Origin: Erodium maritimum
Taxonomy: Eukaryota > Streptophyta > Magnoliopsida > Geraniales > Geraniaceae
Direction of reading: 5' to 3'
Assembly (NCBI GenBank): GCA_963921825.1
Contig: OY997594.1
Coordinates: forward strand, 67,627,675 to 67,691,674
Length of the DNA: 64,000 nucleotides
Shown: positions 3,415 to 56,147 of the stretch, one piece after another
Layout: every line of letters starts with the position of its first letter
How positions within the stretch are numbered: position 1 is the stretch's first letter
Made by a program: the position numbers and the translations under genes
The notes under the pieces: model-generated
What the model was told of the DNA's origin: nothing
Seen by the model: only the letters and a program-made list of their open reading frames with translations
The model's database searches: none

Positions 3415-3647
3415 ATTTTTTGTGGCACCTCACTACCTTAGAATGTATTTTTTTTTCACTTTTATACCCGCCGTCAATTTTCCATCCATTTTTGGATGAA
3501 AACACTTACAAAGTCTATAATACCCCTCACTAACAATCAAATTTTCAAAAAGATGTCATTGGTTTTCAAAATTTATTTAAAAAAATCAGTTTTTAATGTC
3601 ACAAAAATGCATTATAGGGTAGTGAGGTGCCACAAAAACTGCATTTT

Positions 3648-5385
3648 TTTTTATAAGCTAAAGAATTTTGTTAAGCAAATGTTCTATAAAGATATAGAAC
3701 AAAGCAAGAAAGAGATCCAAACGGACCTTTTCCTTTAAACCAATACAGCTACAAAGAGCAAAACAAAACCTGAACAAAACAAGACGTAAACAAAACACCT
3801 TGCCTATTTTCTATTCGGGTTCAAACAAGTAAACCGGTTAGATACCGGAACAGGGGTTAGGACTTGAGCAGAACTGGGTTCTCTTCCCTCGGAATCCTGA
3901 TCGAGAGCTAAGGAACAAAAATCAACAGCCTTTCTATCAACCTTCGAGCTGTAACTCCAGTTGCCCGAGCTATCTTTTTTGGCTACATTCACCAAGAAAC
4001 AGACCGAATTATCCCCTTTATTAGCAGAAGTCCTGGCTCTCGTCTGATACACTACCACTGGTTGTGCAATCACCTTCGCCTGACCCTTCTTAGGGCGACC
4101 ACGTCGTTTTGGCTCAGCCACCGAGATCGGTTTTTGCAAGGCTTCCTTCCACGGGCTTCCTTGAAAACCAATCTCCACAGCCGGGTCAACGCCCTGAAAC
4201 GGATCGTCTTGACTCGAACCTATCGCTGATGGATCCAAATCATTCTCCAGTCGCTTAAAAATTGAAGCCAATTTTGGATCCTGTTGGGCCAGAACTGAGC
4301 CAACTGGGACAGGCCCAGGAGATAGGCCCGGTTTTGATGTGCCAAGCCCAGGAGATAGGCCCAGTTCAGAAGTGTCAGCTAGGGCAGACCCAGGAAAAAG
4401 GCCCGCTTGGCCCAACACCTCCCGAAGCCCACCATCAAGTCCAACTTTGACGCGATCACGTAACGTAGACGGAGACGACCTCTCTTCCAAGAATCGCGGC
4501 GCAATCAATTCAGAATCAACAGAGTTTCCTTTGTTCAAATTTGAAAATCCTTGATCCAACGAAATCCCTGTGATCAAGGGATCGAAGTCTGAAACAGAAT
4601 ATGAAAGCCCGCAGTATTTCTATACTGACGTTGTCGGGTCTGTTGCCGGAGAGGGTGTGGCCAGAAGAGGCTTGACCACACCTCCAAAACGCTGCAGACC
4701 TTCTCCTTCTGTCCGACCGAGATCGTCGGGGCTGGAAAACGCAGCTTCACGCGGAACAGAGCATGTGCTCTGTTTCGCGTTCCCGACTGGTTCAGTCACC
4801 TTGGAGTCCAACCGACGCCGGAAAAATGCCACGAACAAGACGTGACCATTCACCTGTGCCCCGTTTAACGTCTCCAAAGCCCGGGACGCAGCCAAAGGCG
4901 TCGTAAATCGAACGAAACCGAAAAAACGTCCTGTCCTGTTTGCACGCTTCAGCAAAGAGAAGGAAGCTATGTCGCCAAAAATGGATAGCTTTTCCTGAAA
5001 CCAGACTTCTGAAGCAGGATAAGGTAGGTTCTGGACGTAAAGCTCAGTGTCGCTCACTTCAAAACGTACCGGCGAACGTCGACGGCGAGCACCTGCTCCA
5101 CCCGTGCGAACTCCGGCCGTCTCCCTTTCCTTTGGGTGCACAGGAATAGAAGCGGCAACAGCAACAACCTCACCGGGAAACGAGCTCTTTCCCGATGAAG
5201 CTGCACCCGTATTAGAACTGCCCCTGCCACCCGTTTGTTTGCCCCGGCCACTCTGCACACCACCTCCAACAGGGTTATCCTTAGAGGGTCTCTTGACCGG
5301 GACAACAATGGCCTGAAACTCCTTGTAAAGCGACAATAAACCTGAGCAAAACACTAAAAACTCATCAAGAGTACCGGGCATAAAC
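3648..5385 (-). mobile_element. ORF1-only LINE-type retrotransposon ('half-LINE'), RRM family
   Basis: A minus-strand retrocopy bounded by an exact 9-bp duplication CTGCATTTT (3639-3647 and 5386-5394), with a T-run at the left that is its A-tail, preceded by an AGCTTATAAAAAA-type 3' end. It carries one long ORF1-like frame (RRM protein) and a short 3' UTR, with no endonuclease or reverse transcriptase. Its 5' end lies only four bases before the ATG, so it is probably 5'-truncated. A related copy with the same tail lies at 54317-56147. It inserted inside the MITE at 1824-5535. Confidence 0.8.
3804..5381 (-). CDS. RRM-domain ORF1 protein of a half-LINE, one in-frame stop
   Basis: Read from 5381 downward, a single frame of about 525 codons interrupted only by TAG at 4620-4622. 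Order: an N-terminal helix-like segment; a Gly/Ser/Arg-rich linker; an RRM at about residues 112-190 with RNP2-like ELYVQNLP and RNP1-like GRFFGFVRF; a Pro-rich region; a short repeat (GLSPGLGTSKPGLSPGP); an SPWKEAL motif; an AT-hook-like KRRGRPKK; and a polar tail. RRM-bearing ORF1 proteins are known from plant L1-clade LINEs of the BNR type. The protein probably bound the element's RNA. An otherwise open frame suggests recent insertion or selection. Confidence 0.75.
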
Positions 5386-5535
5386 CTGCATTTTAGGGTA
5401 GTGATGTGCCAGAAAAATAGTTAGGGTATGAAAGTGGAAAAAATGCATTATAGGGTAGTGAGGTGCCACAAAAAATAATTAGTATAGTGAGATGAAAAAA
5501 ACCACATAATTAAGGTAGTAAGATGAAAATAACCC

Positions 5536-33961: not shown

Positions 33962-34399
33962 TTCGACCATGAAACCTCTTTCACGGAAAAAGGCTATTAA
34001 AGCGAAAATCACATTTAATAATTTCTTGGTGAGTTATGAAAAAACAATATCAGAATTTCTTATGATGCTACGAAAAATTAGAGATGAGATTTAAGATGGA
34101 TTTGATTTGAAGAAAACACGAAACACAACTGAGTCATTTTTCAATAATCCTTCATAAATCATTCATGTAATATGTTATATATAAGGAATTATTCATTTAT
34201 ATTATATATGGGACCTATAGAAGTTATCAAAAGTATACCATCTTATAATTTTAGCGAACTATTAATTTATCACCCTATCTCCGAGTCGGAACCGGACAAA
34301 AATATTATCTTAGATTATTTATTAAATAATCGAGTACTATTTTATCGAGTTTCTATTGTACTACTCGGAACTGAAAGATATCATCCGCAACTTTAGATT
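33962..34399. other. AT-rich filler beside the LINE ORF1 fragment
   Basis: Contains a short frame (34172-34396) with no family features. Confidence 0.35.
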
Positions 34400-36178
34400 T
34401 GAAACCCAATGGGATGCAGTACGCCCAAGCTATTGAAGAAGCTTGTCCCTTACTACATCTCCCCGCACCAGGTTCATAAGTTTCCTCCATTAAAGCACGA
34501 TCACTGACAAAACGATTTCCACGATCTCCTTTACTAAGCAGCGCTCTTCTCTTCTTCTTACTTTACATCGGGATGGTAAACAGAGTCTTCTCCGAGTCGA
34601 CCGACATAGCTCCGATAGACATAGTTTTCTCGAGGTCAACCAACATAATACCGGACTGAGTCTGAACTATACCCGCAAAATTTGAATCCCCCTTATCCGC
34701 ACTCTACAAAACACTCTCAGATTCAGAACAATCGAAGTCACCTATTTTTTTGACAGTGTCCGACCTCATCCCAGTCGGGTTGGGCTGCATCTCTCGCACA
34801 ACTCTGACACTTGTAGACGACCCTTAAGCCGTCTGTTTAGCAAGTACCTCCTTCCCAAGTAAGGTATTACCGGCTTCCCTACTTGCAGACATCCACATAT
34901 CAACTGAATCCCCTTGGCGAGAGGGAAGCAATACCGAGACCTGGGTATGATCCACAACAGAAAGTTGCATGTTAAAGGCCTCTTCCTCTAAAAAGACATC
35001 CACCCTTCAATCAGACGTGAACCTAGAGTCCACGTGCACCAAGACGTAGGCCTCTTAGAAGGAGAATCCAATAACGGATTGCGCACCACGATGCCTATTT
35101 CCCCTAAACCTAACTTTAGGTTCGCGTTCGAACATCCGTGAATGGGGAGGCCGTTGACTCTTACCCAATTGAAAATACCACCTTCAATAATAGGCGTTTC
35201 TTATCCAATCGCACAGTCATCCACCGAGAGAGCTAAATCCAATGGATTTTCATCATCCTTTCCTCGAACTCCTTGTCGGCACAAGTAACCAAAACTACTC
35301 TGTTTTCCAAAGCCTTCACTTAAAAGTCCAAAACCCCATGTTTCCCAATCACCTCTTGCACCTCCGTTGGGTTGATTTTGGTGTATAGCACAACCAATAA
35401 ACCATTCGTTGCCTCCTCTTTCAAGTGATCATCCATTGTTATGTGGATCTGATACACTTCCTCAGTAGTGATTCGACCTTAGGAAACATACTCTCTCTTC
35501 TTGTTAATGACGTTTCGTAAATCAGGCCCCAAACCTAGATCCTTCTACCACGCCTGAGCTATGAATAACGTGTGTGAACCCAACTTAGTACCATTGGTCA
35601 CCCTTACCCTCTTCTCCAAGTCGGCCCCTGGCTTGAATTTGACAAAGCCAAATAATCGGCCTCTATGGTTCAGATTGGATGTAAGGTGGACAAATTGTAC
35701 CTCGCCCACAGTACTAAATATGTCCCGAACGCCATCTACAGTTGTACCTTCCGGTAAATTCAACACGAAAACTTTGGTAGGAGTAACGCACCTTGCATTG
35801 GAGCTTTTCTGAACCGTTCCTCGACCCTCTCTTTCCCAGCCCCCACCTCCCCAACCTCACCCCTCTGTGAATTGTCCTTGTCCAAATCAAACCCGAGTTC
35901 ACCTGTAACAGGCCAAACTCTCCATGACTCCACAAACTCACCCTCACCTTGTTCCCTGACTCTTTCCTCTCGTACTTACTGAGATGACACAACCATCGAC
36001 CTCATGTATCGATGTTAATCCAACAAATCGAGGGACATAGGACGTTGAACGACTAGTCCAACAAAACGAGGAACAGAGGACGGAGGATCGAGATGTCTGG
36101 ATAATCGGCCTAAAATTGCAACGGAGGAGGAGGCCGTTGGAGAGGACATTGGGATGCGAGTTGGCGAGAAGAAACACC
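34400..36178 (-). mobile_element. LINE ORF1 region with RRM and DUF4283-like segment, decayed
   Basis: Read on the minus strand: an N-terminal region, an RRM (VFVLNLPEGTTVDGVRDIF ... GRLFGFVKF) at 35545-35775, then pieces that resemble the DUF4283-type middle domain of plant LINE ORF1 (VLYTKINPTEVQEVIGKHG, then VNGLPIH), and an acidic, Ser-rich C-terminal part ending near 34400. Stops and frameshifts are frequent. ORF2 is not adjacent. It is the longest relative of the RRM proteins at 3804-5381 and 54517-55750, and shows that those copies lack the middle domain. Confidence 0.65.
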
Positions 36179-42984: not shown

Positions 42985-43025
42985 TTTAGGTTGATGTTTT
43001 TTTTTGAAACGAGATACGAACTTTA

Positions 43026-43892
43026 TTAATTGAACTTTTGTAAGATAGACATAAACGCGGCCGGGATGGTGAATCCGGACCACGAAAGGACAGGCACAGA
43101 ACGGGCTTCCCGGGCTAGCCAATGGGCTGCTCCGTTCGCAGACCTAGATATGTACTCGAGTTTAACATCCTCGAGAGTAGCTAACAGGGACCTGCAGTCG
43201 TCTACCAACCGGCCCAAAGGGGAGAAGACCTGGTGTGTGCCTTGAATCAGGTGTACCAGGTACTGGGCGTCGCTTTGTATTATGACCCTGGACGATTGCG
43301 ATGCTTGTATCCATTCCAAGGCCTGCCATATCGCCATTGCCTCCGAATATTCAGGATTGAGTGCCCCACTCCCATAGCCATTCCGTGCTTCCCGGACCCC
43401 TCCCGTATCCGTGCGACATATCCAACCCCATCCAAACTGACCTGAATCCGCAAAAGTTGCTCCGTCAACGTTGATCAGAGACCAGGTAGGGGGAGGGGGT
43501 TTCCATGTAGTTTGTCTGGATTGGGGGGTGTGAACGGGCTTCGGGAGACCCGATTGTGCTTCTACCCAACTATGCTGGTTACTGAGGACCGTGGCCACCA
43601 GCTCTTGTGGGGTGGAGGTGGCCTTATCCCAAACCATAGCATTCCTCGCCTTCCATATCTCCCAGAGGACTAGACAGGCTTTGCTCCGGGTCGCAGCATC
43701 TGGGATCAAGAACAAGGCTGAGAGCCAGTCAGCTAGAGGAGATGATAACGAGGCAGGGATGGGTAACCCTGCTTTGTCCCAAACCGACCTCGCAAAGGGG
43801 AAAGATAGCAGAAGATGATCCGTAGTTTCCGGGTCGGATTGACACATCTGGCATGTGTCCGAAATTGGAACGAACTTTGTGCGGAGGTTCAT
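43026..43892 (-). pseudogene. LINE ORF2 C-terminus: zf-RVT and RNase H
   Basis: An open frame of 288 codons. It starts in zf-RVT (CQMCQSDPETTDHLL, then WDKAGLPIP). The RNase H (RVT_3 type) begins at INVDGATFADSGQFGWGW, with the acidic residues D (INVDG), E (EYSEAMAIWQALEW) and D (IIQSDAQYL), then SANGAAHWLAREA. This frame is intact even though the upstream parts of ORF2 are disrupted. Confidence 0.85.
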
Positions 43893-44562
43893 TGCAACCT
43901 ATAATGTACCAGAGATAGCTCGCCATAAGAATACCTTGATTCGTGGCTGAATGTCCTGGTCCTAAATACTTGTCCAAACCGTTGTCCCCATGGAGGCGTG
44001 CCAACGTCCGTTATCTCTGGGGAGTGCTCTATAACCCTCTTTCACTGAGTACTCCCCTCTGATATTGAACTTCCAGGACCATTTATCTGAATGCCGGGGG
44101 AGAGGCGGGGGTACCTGGAAGACATCTTGAACAATTGCCGGAGGGAGGTTCAGCTGTAGTTTTTGCACGTCTCATTCATAATCGGCGGTGGCAAGATTCG
44201 ACACCATAAGGGCCGGGGTGATACACGTGTGCACGGGAATAATTGGGTTATTCCCTAGGAGCCATGGAGAACCCTCAACCATAGTAGAGCAGCCGTCACC
44301 AATAGTCCGGATCAACCCACCACGGAGCAGTCCCTGGGTGCCCCGAAGGCCCGACCAGATTTGGCTGGGTCCATTTCCTCCTCCCGCCGAGAGGCAATCA
44401 CCCTGAGGATAATAACGGGCTTTGAGGACGCGAGCCATCAAACTATCAGGTTGGGACCAGTTTCCACCCCATTTTTTCCAGCATTGAGATATTCATATCC
44501 CGCATATCTTTGAAACCCATACCTCCATCCTCCTTTGGCCTGCACAATTTAGCCCGGTCCTA

Positions 44563-46370
44563 TCAGATGATCGGCTTCGTGCCCCTGGGAGTACCCGTCC
44601 ACCAGTACCGAGCCAGTGCAACATGGATCTTATTTATGGATTCCCTTGGGAACAGGAACACACTCATCGCATAGATTGGCATGGCCTGGAGGACTGATTT
44701 GATCATAACCTCCTTCCCTCCTGCCGATAACATCTGCCCATCCCATGACCCAATTTTTGTCACTATTCGGTCGCATAAGAATTGAAGACTCTGACCTTTT
44801 TTGCGACCCAGCATGTTGGGTACTCCCAGGTACTTAGTCGGTCCCGAGATTTCCTGGATCCCTAGTATGTCACAGCATGCCGATCTCTTGGCCAATGTCG
44901 TATTAGTATTGAAGAAAATGGAGGATTTACCTTTGTTGATGACTTGGCCCGAGAGATGACCAAACATTTGGAGGATATTGTTCAAATGTGTCGCCTCCTC
45001 GTGGTCTGCTCTGCAGAAAATGTAACAGTCATCCGCAAAGAAGATGTGAGAGACCAACGGAGCTCCTCTAGCCACAGAGACCCCATGAATCTGTCTAGCC
45101 CTCTCGGCTTGACTGAGCATTCAGGACAGACCCTCCATACAGAAGAGAAATAAATACGGCGATAGAGGGTCGCCTTGTCTGATACCCCGACCTGCTGTAA
45201 AAGGGGTCGTGTGCTTCCCGTCAGAGCTTACCGTGTATTCGATTGATCGCATACATGCGAGCATCATCGCTCGCCATCCCATATCGAATCCAAATGCTCC
45301 ATCATGGATAACAAGAAAGACCACTCCACTCTGTCGTAGGCCTTACTCATATCTAACTTCAGTGCCATAAACCCTCGCTGCCCCTGTGTTTTACGCCTGA
45401 GGGTATGGATAATCTCATAGGAGATAATGACATCATCCTGAATGTGTCTGCTCGGGACAAAAGCCCCTTGATTCGTTGATATTATCGGATCCAATAAAGG
45501 TTTGATCCTGTTGGCTAGGACCTTAGAGAGGATTCTGAATATCACATTACAGAGGGCGATAGGTCTCAGCTCCGCAATCTTTTTCGCCCCTGGAATCTTT
45601 GGAATCATAATCAGGGTGGTCTTATTGATGTCCTGGTCAATGGTGCAAGTCAAAACTGCCGTACGGACAAAATCTATGACCTCCGGGGATAGGGTATCCC
45701 AGTAATGTTGGAAGAACTTTGGGTTGAGACCGTTAGAGCCTGGGGATTTTGACCCCATTTGGAAGACAGCATGGCGCACTTCCTGATCTGTCACCCTCTT
45801 GGTCAGTAGTAAGTTCTGTGCCGAGGTGATCATGCTCGTGACATGCATGGAGAGATCGTAATCTTCAATCTCACCCGCAGTGAAGATATTTGCAAAGTAC
45901 GTGTGGAGCAGGTCGCTCATTCCTGTATTCCAGTGCACTTCCACACCTTCCTCATTAACCAGGGATTTTAACTTGTTTGTAGCCTGGCGTTTTGAGGACG
46001 ATCTCTGGAAGAAGCTTGTGTTTTGGTCACCTTCCCCAAGCCAATGTTGTTTCGCTCTCTGACGCCAAAACTGTTCTTGTGTTGCTAGGGCCCTGTTATA
46101 CTGTTTCTGAATCGCCAATCTCCGCTTGATGCCCTGTCTATCAGTTCTACCATTCAATTTAGCGAGAGTCCGCTGTAACCGCCGGATCTGGTTAATGTTA
46201 TCTCTGAATATTGTCTGGCCCCTGTCATCCAGCGACACCCCGATGTCCTTAATATGATGCTTGATGTGACGGTCCCCCGGTTGTCCCCATTCTGACTGAA
46301 TTAACGCCCCACACTCGGGATGGTCAATCCACATGTTCTCAAAGCGAAACTGACGAGGTCGTCGTTCCAC
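44563..46370 (-). pseudogene. LINE ORF2 reverse transcriptase domain, broken
   Basis: The upstream piece (46370-45264) holds the linker (GDQNTSFFQRSSSKRQ), fingers and palm start (RPIALCNVIFRILSKVLANR, then LDMSKAYDRVEW). A frame change near 45300 leads to the second piece (to 44563) with the active site FADDCYIF, a variant of YADD, and LGVPNMLGRKKGQ. One frameshift separates the halves; a stop ends the second piece. Confidence 0.85.
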
Positions 46371-46379
46371 CGAATCCTT

Positions 46380-47129
46380 CTAGAGGCGAAGGAGTATGGG
46401 TTTATGATCTGATATTGAGATACCCAGGTTCTGAAGTGACACATCCCTAAACTGGTCTCGAGCCTGTGGGGAAATGAAAGCCCTATCCAGCTGACTTTCC
46501 ATTAGAGACTCAGCGTCCTGGCCCCGTGCCCATGTGAACTTGTAACCTTGCAGAGGCACCTCTTCCACCCCTATATCCGATATAGCCTGCTGAAAGCCTT
46601 GCATGAGGGCTAAAGGGTACGCCCTCCCACCCCATTTTTCCGATGGACGTAGCATATTGTTAAAACCCCCCACCAGAATCCAATCCACCGGCGCCAATAT
46701 TGTGGCCAGGTGCCTCAAATTGGTCCATGTCAGATGCCGGTTCTCCCAAACCGGTTCGCCATAGATACCTGTGAAACGAATAGGTGTTTCCTGACAGATC
46801 TGGACAATCGTATCAATGTGTTACTGCTGCATTGACAAGATCGTAACCTTGCACTGTTCCCCCCACAGCATCATAACACCCCCTTTATTTGTCTGGGGTC
46901 GGGAGCCCGGAGTGGCCTATGGTGTAACGCCCGGTATACCCGTACCACCGTGAAATCCTAGCGTTCTGCGCAATATAGCGAGACGTGATCTTGAGTTCTG
47001 GGATTCCACATGGCGGGTTTCCGTCAAAAACAGTACATCAGGTTTAAACTGTTTCACCAGGTCCTTCAACTGGCGACGGTTGTGGTCCGTGCCTAGGCCT
47101 CTACAGTTGCAGGCCAGCAGATTCGGCAT
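46380..47129 (-). pseudogene. LINE ORF2 endonuclease domain, broken
   Basis: Start ATG at 47127-47129 gives MPNLLACNCRGLGTDHNRR, the usual ORF2 start, then PDVLFLTETR. After a frame change near 46920, a second piece (46718-46380) has ILVGGFNNML, where GDFN is expected, and SISDHKPILLRL, the conserved SDH. The GDFN aspartate is replaced by glycine, and a TAG at 46380-46382 separates this domain from the RT region. Confidence 0.8.
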
Positions 47130-47629
47130 TTCAATCAAGTAGTAGAAATCAACTTTTGCAAGGTGAAAACGATACCTGTCGAAACTTTCGAGAGATGAGG
47201 AGATCCAGCGACTGGCTGTCGAGAGTCCGGGCTGGATTGGTCCGACAGATCTGGCAGAGTTCGGGAGCCGGCGGGCAGCGATACACGCGATGGACGAGAG
47301 AGGTCGGGGGTGGGCTCTGAAACAGTGGTCCGGTGGTGAAGACCAACGATCGGAGCGGGTGACAGGAGAGAACCCTGGCGGCGGATTGACGGTCGGGAGA
47401 GATGGCAACAGGTCGGCGGCGTCGAACCCTAACAGGGTTAACGAGGGTACCCAGGGGTTAAAGTGCACCGAGGACAGGGGGAGGGAGTCCGTGAGAGAGA
47501 GGACGAAGGACGCCTGACGGCGGGTGGTCGGAGTGGGCTGGAGGAGGACGAAGGCGACAAACCAAAAGAGTTAGGAAGGAACTTCAAGAGGTTGTTTGGA
47601 GAGCGAGTTTTACAATTTAGGTTGATGTT

Positions 47630-54316: not shown

Positions 54317-56147
54317 TTATAAGCTCAGTTTTTTTAAATGACTCATTTTAAGGAGAAATGAGGCAAGAGGTCAAAAGACCAGAAAACGCTTACAAAAAAC
54401 TCCGCTAAGGAGGAGCTATAAGGTCAAACCTTATCCCAAAGAGTACAAAAAACCAAGAAACACACAAACACGAACAAAACACATGATCAAACTAGTGAAA
54501 ACTAAGCCACTGGTTTCTTCCGACCCTTGTGAGACTATTTCCACAATGTCGAAAGAGGAGGTGCTGACTTGATGGCACGTTCTCGACTCAACGATCGAGT
54601 CCTCGAACGAGTAACAACCGTATAAGTGGAAGGTCGACTCAAACGAGGTTGGAGAAGGGAGTCCTTCCATGGACTGCTTTCCTTCTCCTCCGCTTCCATC
54701 GAATCCTCCGACACTACGACATCCGAATCCGAAGCTACCTGATCTTTGGCTTCAATCAATCCCTTATGGTCAGAATAATCAACCGAAACCGCAACAGAAC
54801 CTCCGACACTTACACAAACCACCGACCCTTCCTCACAACCACTTGTCACGTAACCTTCCTCTACCTCTAGAGTAAGAGAACTTGGTGAAAAAGTTTAATT
54901 GGACGTACAACCCAACTCGCCACCAGGATGGACTTCACCAGATCCAAATTTCACACACTCAACATTCGTACACGCCTAAGCAATCTATGTTGCGTGCAAA
55001 CCAAGTAACAAACAACTCGAAGAGTCATGGGCTTTAGTACGACCCTGATCTTCAATCGAAACCTCCGAAACGCACGCACCCGATTTGAAACAAGAGTAAA
55101 TCGCGAAAAGATCGGCACAGAGATTTTATGATCTCTTCCCGAGCCTCTTTTAATGAGCAATCAAATGCCAGGAAAGAAATTTGGTCACCATTCAGAAGGA
55201 GCTTCAGCTTCGACCCAAACTCAAAAAGGCAAATATTAACCTCCTTCCCCAGCAAACCTCGTCCCTGCAAACCGACCACCATGCTCTGTTTTTTTTTGCA
55301 CCCAAATCTCTGCTCTAAGTTACAGTGTTGGCACCACCCTTAGAGCTCTATTTTGGAACTACGACTCCTTTTACTGTGAATGGTTCCGACTCAGGCCGAG
55401 CAAGAGCCACAAAAGCTTGAATCCATTGAATTTAAACCCGTCATACACATCAACGGCCATTTGAGCTGACACCGAATATTGAAAATTGACAAAACCGAAA
55501 AAAACTGCCTTTTCTAGTTGAGTCGTTTTAGAGAATTGTCAGATACAACAGTGTCGAACTCGCTGAAAATGGACCGAATCAACTCATCTGAAGTAGAAAA
55601 CGGTATGTTATAAACAAAAATCTTAGTACCTGAGATTCTCGAGGATGACGCCACCAACGCCTTTGTAGAAGGGATCACCGGAGGAGAAAGCTTCTCACCT
55701 GAAGGATCTGAAGCAGACACCAAATGGTTGACCTCAGATGGACCCTAAAACTGCCCTGGATTGCAATCTCCGACCAATTAAGGGATTGAATCACCTCCAC
55801 CTCACGCCCTTGCGCTTCACAACCACTGAAGTTGTCGATGGAACACGACGCTTGATTGTTTGTTTCTTCTGATCCAAATCACCTCTCTTGCTTTATCTTC
55901 GAACTGATGCAAAATCAACTAAAAGACCATCCCTCACAGAAAGACGAGACGAACCATACTCTACACAACATTGGGAGATTTTCCTACAAAAACGAATCCC
56001 ACGAACATCACAATACCTAGCCTTAAGAGTCTTGACCTTACCAAGTTTGAGAGCTCCGGCCATCATTAGGGAAGGGGCTTCTTGATGAGGTTATTGTTCT
56101 AATGGAAGTACTATAACCTAATACTCTGAAGTTCTCGCACATGCCTA
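54317..56147 (-). mobile_element. Second RRM half-LINE copy, decayed
   Basis: A minus-strand copy bounded by a near-duplicate ATGATTATTATTTTT (54303 onward) and ATGATTAATTTTTATTTT (56148 onward). It ends AGCTTATAAAAAAT (left edge), as does the copy at 3648. Read from the right: about 70 bp of 5' leader; MMAGALKLGKVKTLKARYC; an RRM in two frames (KIFVYNIPFSTSDELIRSIF, then FFGFVNFQ-like and FKLFVALARPE); later ESSPWKDSLLQPRL and TVVTRSRTRS, then a stop near 54535. No RT. Several frameshifts and stops, so it is older than the first copy. Confidence 0.7.

Follow-up and report, generated by a model that had tools for sequence, protein, structure and literature searches.

The genome of Erodium maritimum contains a family of non-LTR retroelements whose full-length copies encode ORF1 alone. 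The family is real: it is HAL1-like in its working, its protein carries an RRM, and it comprises several lineages. Judging from the sequence features described below, it is very likely a long-lived family that is moved in trans by the enzymes of L1-type LINEs. One copy is located at positions 3648-5385 of the window, by which we mean the whole stretch of 64,000 nucleotides that was analyzed.

An RRM-encoding element in the window

The window copy has its sense on the minus strand and is organized as follows.

3648..5385, minus strand: ORF1-only retroelement, nearly full-length, slightly 5'-truncated
3804..5381, minus strand: ORF1 frame of about 525 codons, interrupted once by a stop at 4620-4622, under purifying selection among copies
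4836..5042, minus strand: RRM domain, Pfam PF00076 (RRM_1), E 1.4e-12, residues 127-195 of the translation window:4620-5420:-
4080..4112, minus strand: AT-hook-like basic stretch PKRRGRPKKGQ, read from the sequence, with no Pfam match
3648..3803, minus strand: 3' UTR (about 150 nt) with the tail AACAAAATTCTTTAGCTTATAAAAA and an A-run, read from the sequence
5386..5394, no strand: 5' side of the target-site duplication (TSD), CTGCATTTT on the plus strand, adjoining a local repeat and weak alone
3639..3647, no strand: 3' side of the TSD, CTGCATTTT on the plus strand

The ORF1 frame opens at an ATG at 5381 and continues in one frame on the minus strand to a stop at 3804-3806, in agreement with an earlier sequence-only reading that gave the RRM-encoding frame about 525 codons and one stop. 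In a comparison with solved chains, the best matches of the RRM were to polyadenylate-binding proteins (PABP) and Hu proteins. That reading had also assigned an AT-hook to the protein, of which the basic stretch is retained as AT-hook-like by its presumed likeness to the motif, but it has no domain match to back it. Compared with L009, its closest relative, the window copy is without about 35 nt of the ORF start. At the sense 3' end the A-run is followed by AAAATGCAG, and AAAATGCAG is also found immediately 5' of the element. The A-tail and the 9-bp duplication, both put forward as marks of LINE-type integration, are indeed present; however, the duplication is weak evidence on its own because the same local repeat occurs in both flanks, and the best exact flank repeat of this copy in the exact-match TSD test (25 nt) is made of that local repeat.

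Copies share both ends and are flanked by target-site duplications

When the window element was compared as DNA with the host genome (40 contigs, 763 Mb), the best 40 of 1905 candidates yielded 48 matched pieces. Fifteen of these pieces, one of them the window copy, cover the query from end to end (positions 1-6 to 1722-1738), and the 14 full-span copies other than the window copy show 73-94% identity. At the protein level, at least 150 loci, the best 150 of 9417 candidates, have at least 58% amino acid identity to the window RRM region. The 3'-end pattern AATAAAATTCTTTAGCTTATMAAAA, allowing up to 2 mismatches, occurs at 181 sites in the genome compared with a single site for the reversed control. 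When 20 further tail sites among the 181 were fetched, the C-terminus of ORF1 was present at 18, and the other two consisted of only 46-61 bp of tail.

In a wide search that allowed mismatches, 13 copies measured 1758-1850 bp between their flanking repeats. Exact flanking repeats of at least 11 nt were detected for 20 of 38 tail-bearing copies (19 if the window copy is set aside), compared with 15 of 1406 mismatched pairings, and the remaining 18 of the 38 were without such a repeat in this test, which looked for exact matches in fixed stretches. L012 and L018, which have no tail, and L001-L008, which are overlapping repeats of other copies, were left out. Among copies with a conserved 5' end, 15 of 23 tested have exact repeats of at least 11 nt, and the expectation that multiple copies would have both ends in common and differ in their target duplications is thereby confirmed. 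Four copies with TSDs (L021, L033, L035 and L037) are truncated at the 5' end, and in these the element joins the TSD directly. TSDs, A-tails and 5' truncation together form the sequence signature of the LINE machinery.

No ORF2 was found at the 20 further AATAAAATTCTTTAGCTTATMAAAA tail sites (of 181). A tblastx match of 37 aa at L052 (E 4.5e-4) lies in antisense frames and was taken to be chance and not ORF2. The sequence-only reading had suggested looking for an autonomous LINE that matches the element over its last 100 bp, but none carrying the ORF1-only tail was seen among the 20 sites sampled from the 100 listed (181 in total). Weak tblastn matches of ORF2 pieces were seen at L016, L023, L028, L029, L042 and L043. 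Those outside L016 lie in the flanks, and L016 gives its match because this copy is nested in the RT frame of a different LINE, the 3' side of that frame having been read by eye. Furthermore, none of 150 RRM-ORF1 loci comes closer than 10 kb to any of the top 110 RT loci from one LINE clade, the closest approaches noted being two loci at 22 and 28 kb; these lists represent the best 150 of 9417 and the best 110 of 14740 loose candidates, respectively, and 50 of 150 DUF4283 loci were included. The proposed parallel with mammalian HAL1 is supported by these copies, which carry TSDs and A-tails and no ORF2 in those examined.

Purifying selection on ORF1

ORF1 is under purifying selection. As had been proposed, dN/dS was computed between copies, giving a median of 0.44 for the ORF, well below 1, compared with medians of 0.89-1.50 for the shifted frames. 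Pairwise comparison of 26 selected copies, which reuses branches and mixes selection with neutral decay, and in which only the true frame had its stop codons skipped, gave medians of 0.436 (whole ORF; 1.02 and 0.97 in the two shifted frames), 0.233 (RRM; 1.37 and 1.50 in the shifted frames) and 0.396 (C-terminal part; 1.08 and 0.89 in the shifted frames). For the whole ORF, the filter left 307 of 325 pairs; L010, L012, L018 and more 5'-truncated copies were left out. Near-full-length open frames are found in three of the 26 aligned copies, with whole-locus frames of 535 aa (L013), 535 aa (L022) and 534 aa (L032). The closest pair among the 26 is only 96.8% identical, so present activity of the family is unproven.

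Similarity between copies is not even along the element. Over the last ∼640 nt, which comprise the C-terminus and the 3' UTR, median between-copy identity is 0.875-0.889, compared with 0.786 for the RRM and 0.69 for the rest, suggesting either that copies are mosaics or that the 3' end is constrained. The diverged copies L039-L047 are 87-89% alike to the window element in the last ∼640 bp and 69-77% in the matched upstream parts, and L046 has no match upstream of the shared ∼640-bp 3' part.

A second lineage of similar design

A further element of this type is found in the window.

54317..56147, minus strand: second ORF1-only-type element, diverged and decayed, with an RRM at 55412-55636, SPWKD, and the tail GCTTATAAAA

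It had been read as a second copy of the element at 3648-5385. The two do have SPWKD and the GCTTATAAAA tail in common, but they do not belong to one family, as this is ruled out by an RRM identity of only 29-39% at the amino acid level (best E 8.7e-7) and by DNA matches that are short only (best E 0.13). The element at 54317-56147 is itself repeated, with 46 matches, itself included, from the best 40 of 501 candidates.

LINEs with ORF2 only

The window also contains an L1-type LINE of the complementary arrangement, which the sequence-only reading passed over, as it did the 5' truncation of the element at 3648-5385.

42999..47615, minus strand: L1-type LINE with ORF2 only, frame broken; endonuclease PF03372, RT PF00078, zf-RVT PF13966 and RNase H PF13456; 5' UTR of about 480 nt; no ORF1
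47616..47629, no strand: 5' side of its TSD, AACATCAACCTAAA in the sense direction, 14-nt exact repeat
42985..42998, no strand: 3' side of its TSD, 14-nt exact repeat
47577..47604, minus strand: its 5'-end motif, the window copy differing from the genome pattern at 5 positions

Loci L068-L073 and L076-L086 belong to the same family. Exact flanking repeats of 10-17 nt were found for seven of eight ORF2-only LINEs tested, including the one in the window. For the pairs L068/L072 and L069/L073, the only ones compared with random stretches, repeats as long were seen in 0 of 300 and 1 of 300 stretches, respectively. L082/L083 is the pair without a TSD, and the 3'-side stretch fetched for it did not show the LINE tail.

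The LINE 5' motif GCTCTCCANNCAACCTCNYTGAGGTTCC, with up to 3 mismatches, is present at 406 genome sites and at none in the control, and the LINE 3'-end pattern at 72 sites and none in the control. Thirteen of 100 listed 5' motif sites (of the 406) have RT downstream, among 71 of the 110 RT loci given. The distance from motif to RT is 1187-1287 nt at 11 of these sites, which leaves no room for ORF1: in the window LINE, 750 nt separate the ORF2 start from the RT query, and 1187-1287 nt therefore corresponds to a 5' UTR of ∼440-540 nt. The other two distances are 2931 and 5022 nt. At the 2931-nt site the start of the endonuclease is at the usual distance, and another repeat interrupts its gene.

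The remaining 87 of the 100 listed motif sites have no listed RT nearby. Pairs of the motif exactly 52 bp apart were observed at C3:28582305/28582357, C4:65637895/65637947 and C6:17479404/17479456, and together with these 87 sites they indicate that other elements may share the LINE 5' end. At L089 the 5' motif is followed by a different, GC-rich sequence, and the motif may therefore not be exclusive to the ORF2-only clade. For one of 15 ORF1 loci checked (of 150), C1:54964858-54968435 on the minus strand, a same-strand copy of the LINE 5' motif lies ∼3 kb upstream, an arrangement that could be due to chance, nesting or a longer unit.

How the ORF1-only family may move and how it may have arisen

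If, as is very likely, the ORF1-only family is moved in trans by L1-type LINE enzymes, a predicted A-tailed transcript would encode an RNA-binding protein of ∼535 aa with the RRM and the AT-hook-like stretch. This protein would presumably coat its own RNA, and perhaps that of its helper too, and the A-tail would recruit the RT. The ORF2p of an L1-type LINE, acting in trans, would then nick the target DNA and prime on the A-tail, and such target-primed reverse transcription would leave the TSDs and 5' truncations that are observed. At the 5' end of the RNA, the RT may add sequence from another template, yielding leaders between the TSD and the element. By its gene content, the ORF2-only LINE family represented at 42999-47615 is the most interesting candidate helper; it lacks the kind of protein that the ORF1-only element encodes.

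Many LINE copies are defective, and the window element could on that ground be a one-off truncated copy produced by chance deletion of a LINE. The sequence-only reading had tied this outcome to an element found only once, or to copies that all continue into an ORF2. Instead, there are many copies with the same two ends at different target sites, none of the copies examined continues into ORF2, and because the element is multi-copy with common ends, TSDs and an ORF1 under purifying selection, a chance deletion is refuted and we regard it as exceedingly improbable. It is also quite improbable, to a lesser degree, that the copies are processed pseudogenes, which LINEs would have made from the RNA of a PABP-like host gene with an RRM, and not a retroelement lineage. 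The RRM does resemble those of polyadenylate-binding and Hu proteins, but a selected ORF extends across a large and diverged family with common ends, including the 150 loci (best 150 of 9417) that retain at least 58% amino acid identity to the window RRM region, and a second lineage has a similar design; independent pseudogenes would keep a low dN/dS only through the evolution of the source gene itself.

Two origins for the ORF1-only family carry more weight. The family may have lost ORF2 from a two-ORF RRM (BNR-like) LINE and be moved by that LINE in the manner of HAL1, the ORF2-only LINEs being unrelated, an origin to which we give a little less than an even chance. A LINE of the kind needed is present in the same genome at L087/L074, with an ORF1 containing RRM and DUF4283 and an ORF2 of 1238 aa; a genome search with PF00078 otherwise returned mostly shorter matches, taken as LTR-type RTs. 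A decayed ORF1 of the same RRM and DUF4283 type lies within the window at 34370-35850 on the minus strand, and at least 150 DUF4283 loci, the best 150 of 12439 candidates, exceed the cut-off genome-wide. The RRM of L087/L074 is 36.5% identical to that of the ORF1-only protein over 63 aa and has the same best NCBIfam model (PABP), both falling far below its cut-off, but RRMs in general resemble one another to this degree. There is in addition a weak C-terminal match between the two proteins (tblastn E 0.006 with L013 and 0.17 with L022; hhalign E 0.0097, probability 4%). Against such an origin, a domain search detected no DUF4283 in the ORF1-only protein, and L074 has no A-tailed end within ∼700 nt of its ORF2 stop, in contrast to the short tail of the ORF1-only element. 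Given a conventional two-ORF LINE with this RRM resemblance, a HAL1-like origin is at least as likely as a split, two-component LINE, in which ORF1-only and ORF2-only L1-type families would replicate separately, be selected separately and, much as the parts of a segmented genome do, make up for one another in trans, the former supplying an RRM protein for chaperoning or packaging and the latter the endonuclease and RT. We consider a split LINE possible, though unlikely. It is favored by the coexistence in one genome of two families that each have their own ends and TSDs, by their A-tails and non-homologous 5' leaders, by the selection on ORF1, and by the repeated nature of the ORF2-only class, with its exact repeats at seven of eight members tested and its RT at 1187-1287 nt from 11 of 13 motifs, a 12th being explained by insertion into the endonuclease gene. 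One member of each family also lies in the 64-kb window, but LINEs are abundant in the genome. Direct similarity between the ends of the two families is not significant. A shared 3' end (TTAATAAAATTC) that appeared good by eye failed both a shuffle test, in which 2743 of 20000 shuffles were as good, and a control with AATAAA sites, of which 9 of 159, the window LINE's own site among them, scored equally well; a shared 5' end failed likewise, with 457 of 5000 shuffles as good, and 102 of 3000 stretches taken at random from the window. Against a split LINE stands, too, the ORF1 locus noted above, one of 15 checked, which has the LINE 5' motif upstream and could be part of a longer unit. Other possible helpers exist in the genome, namely the DUF4283 loci and L087/L074, and the ORF2-only LINEs may need no ORF1 at all, as with RTE LINEs, which have a single ORF (PMC9033089).

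Comparison with known elements

HAL1 (half-L1) is a non-autonomous L1 derivative that encodes only ORF1p and that originated several times in mammals (PMC5753468), and to that extent the elements are alike, each being ORF1-only and relying on LINE machinery. The present elements differ in residing in a plant, in coexisting with ORF1-less L1-type LINEs, and in that no parent LINE with the same ends was found here, either at 20 of the 181 tail sites or through the tail of the ORF2-only LINEs, whose similarity is not significant. The protein of HAL1 is a mammalian L1-type ORF1p, whereas an RRM protein with an AT-hook-like stretch is encoded here. The closest likeness in plants is to BNR-type LINEs, known to us from a classification table and reference titles, which have an RRM-bearing ORF1; as far as those sources go, the present element differs in having neither ORF2 nor the DUF4283 region, and because ORF2 is absent it is not a BNR LINE. 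Celine of poplar is a plant L1 LINE with a DUF4283 ORF1 (PMC11288735). Celine-type LINEs, as described there, resemble the candidate helper in their A-tail, TSD and EN/RT-encoding ORF2, but they carry both ORFs, whereas in the window the LINE is limited to ORF2 and the element at 3648-5385 to ORF1.

HeT-A of Drosophila is a Gag/ORF1-only non-LTR element that obtains its RT in trans, similar to the arrangement proposed here, but it is telomere-specific and its Gag is unrelated. To our knowledge, mammals (HAL1) and Drosophila (HeT-A) are the only hosts in which ORF1-only LINE derivatives have been described, and a search of titles and abstracts, lying mostly outside the subscription literature, found no description of a plant ORF1-only LINE family or of an ORF1-less plant L1. 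A plant RRM-ORF1 family with several lineages under purifying selection would show that the ORF1-only state arises independently and lasts. In this genome, the two halves of a LINE may live as separate elements. Cis preference is thought to hold LINEs together, and it would be broken if the ORF1-less LINEs did depend on the ORF1-only family. The role of the LINE ORF1 protein in plants would in that case become testable by genetics.

5' leaders and flanking repeats

In both the ORF1-only and the ORF2-only families, non-homologous leaders lie between the TSD and the conserved 5' end. In 15 ORF1-only copies (L011, L013, L014, L015, L019, L020, L026, L028, L029, L032, L034, L040, L042, L043 and L047) they measure 21-104 nt to the GGCCGG anchor, a length that includes some N-terminal codons common to related copies. 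The LINEs, among them L076, L078, L080 and L086, have leaders of ∼8-60 nt as read by eye. Leaders are absent from the four 5'-truncated ORF1-only copies with TSDs. Template jumping at the 5' end of the RNA is a possible source of the leaders. In the leader of L014, 53 nt match an unlinked locus at 96%. A 2.2-kb stretch examined there yielded no ORF1 copy, and for L014 a simple 5' transduction out of a resident copy is therefore not supported.

By eye, at least six ORF1-only copies (L015, L022, L026, L027, L030 and L047) are flanked by one repeat family (tagtatgtcagaaccggc), and insertion into this family could possibly reflect a target preference. A piece of the tagtatgtcagaaccggc repeat, in inverted orientation, is also found in the leader of L013.
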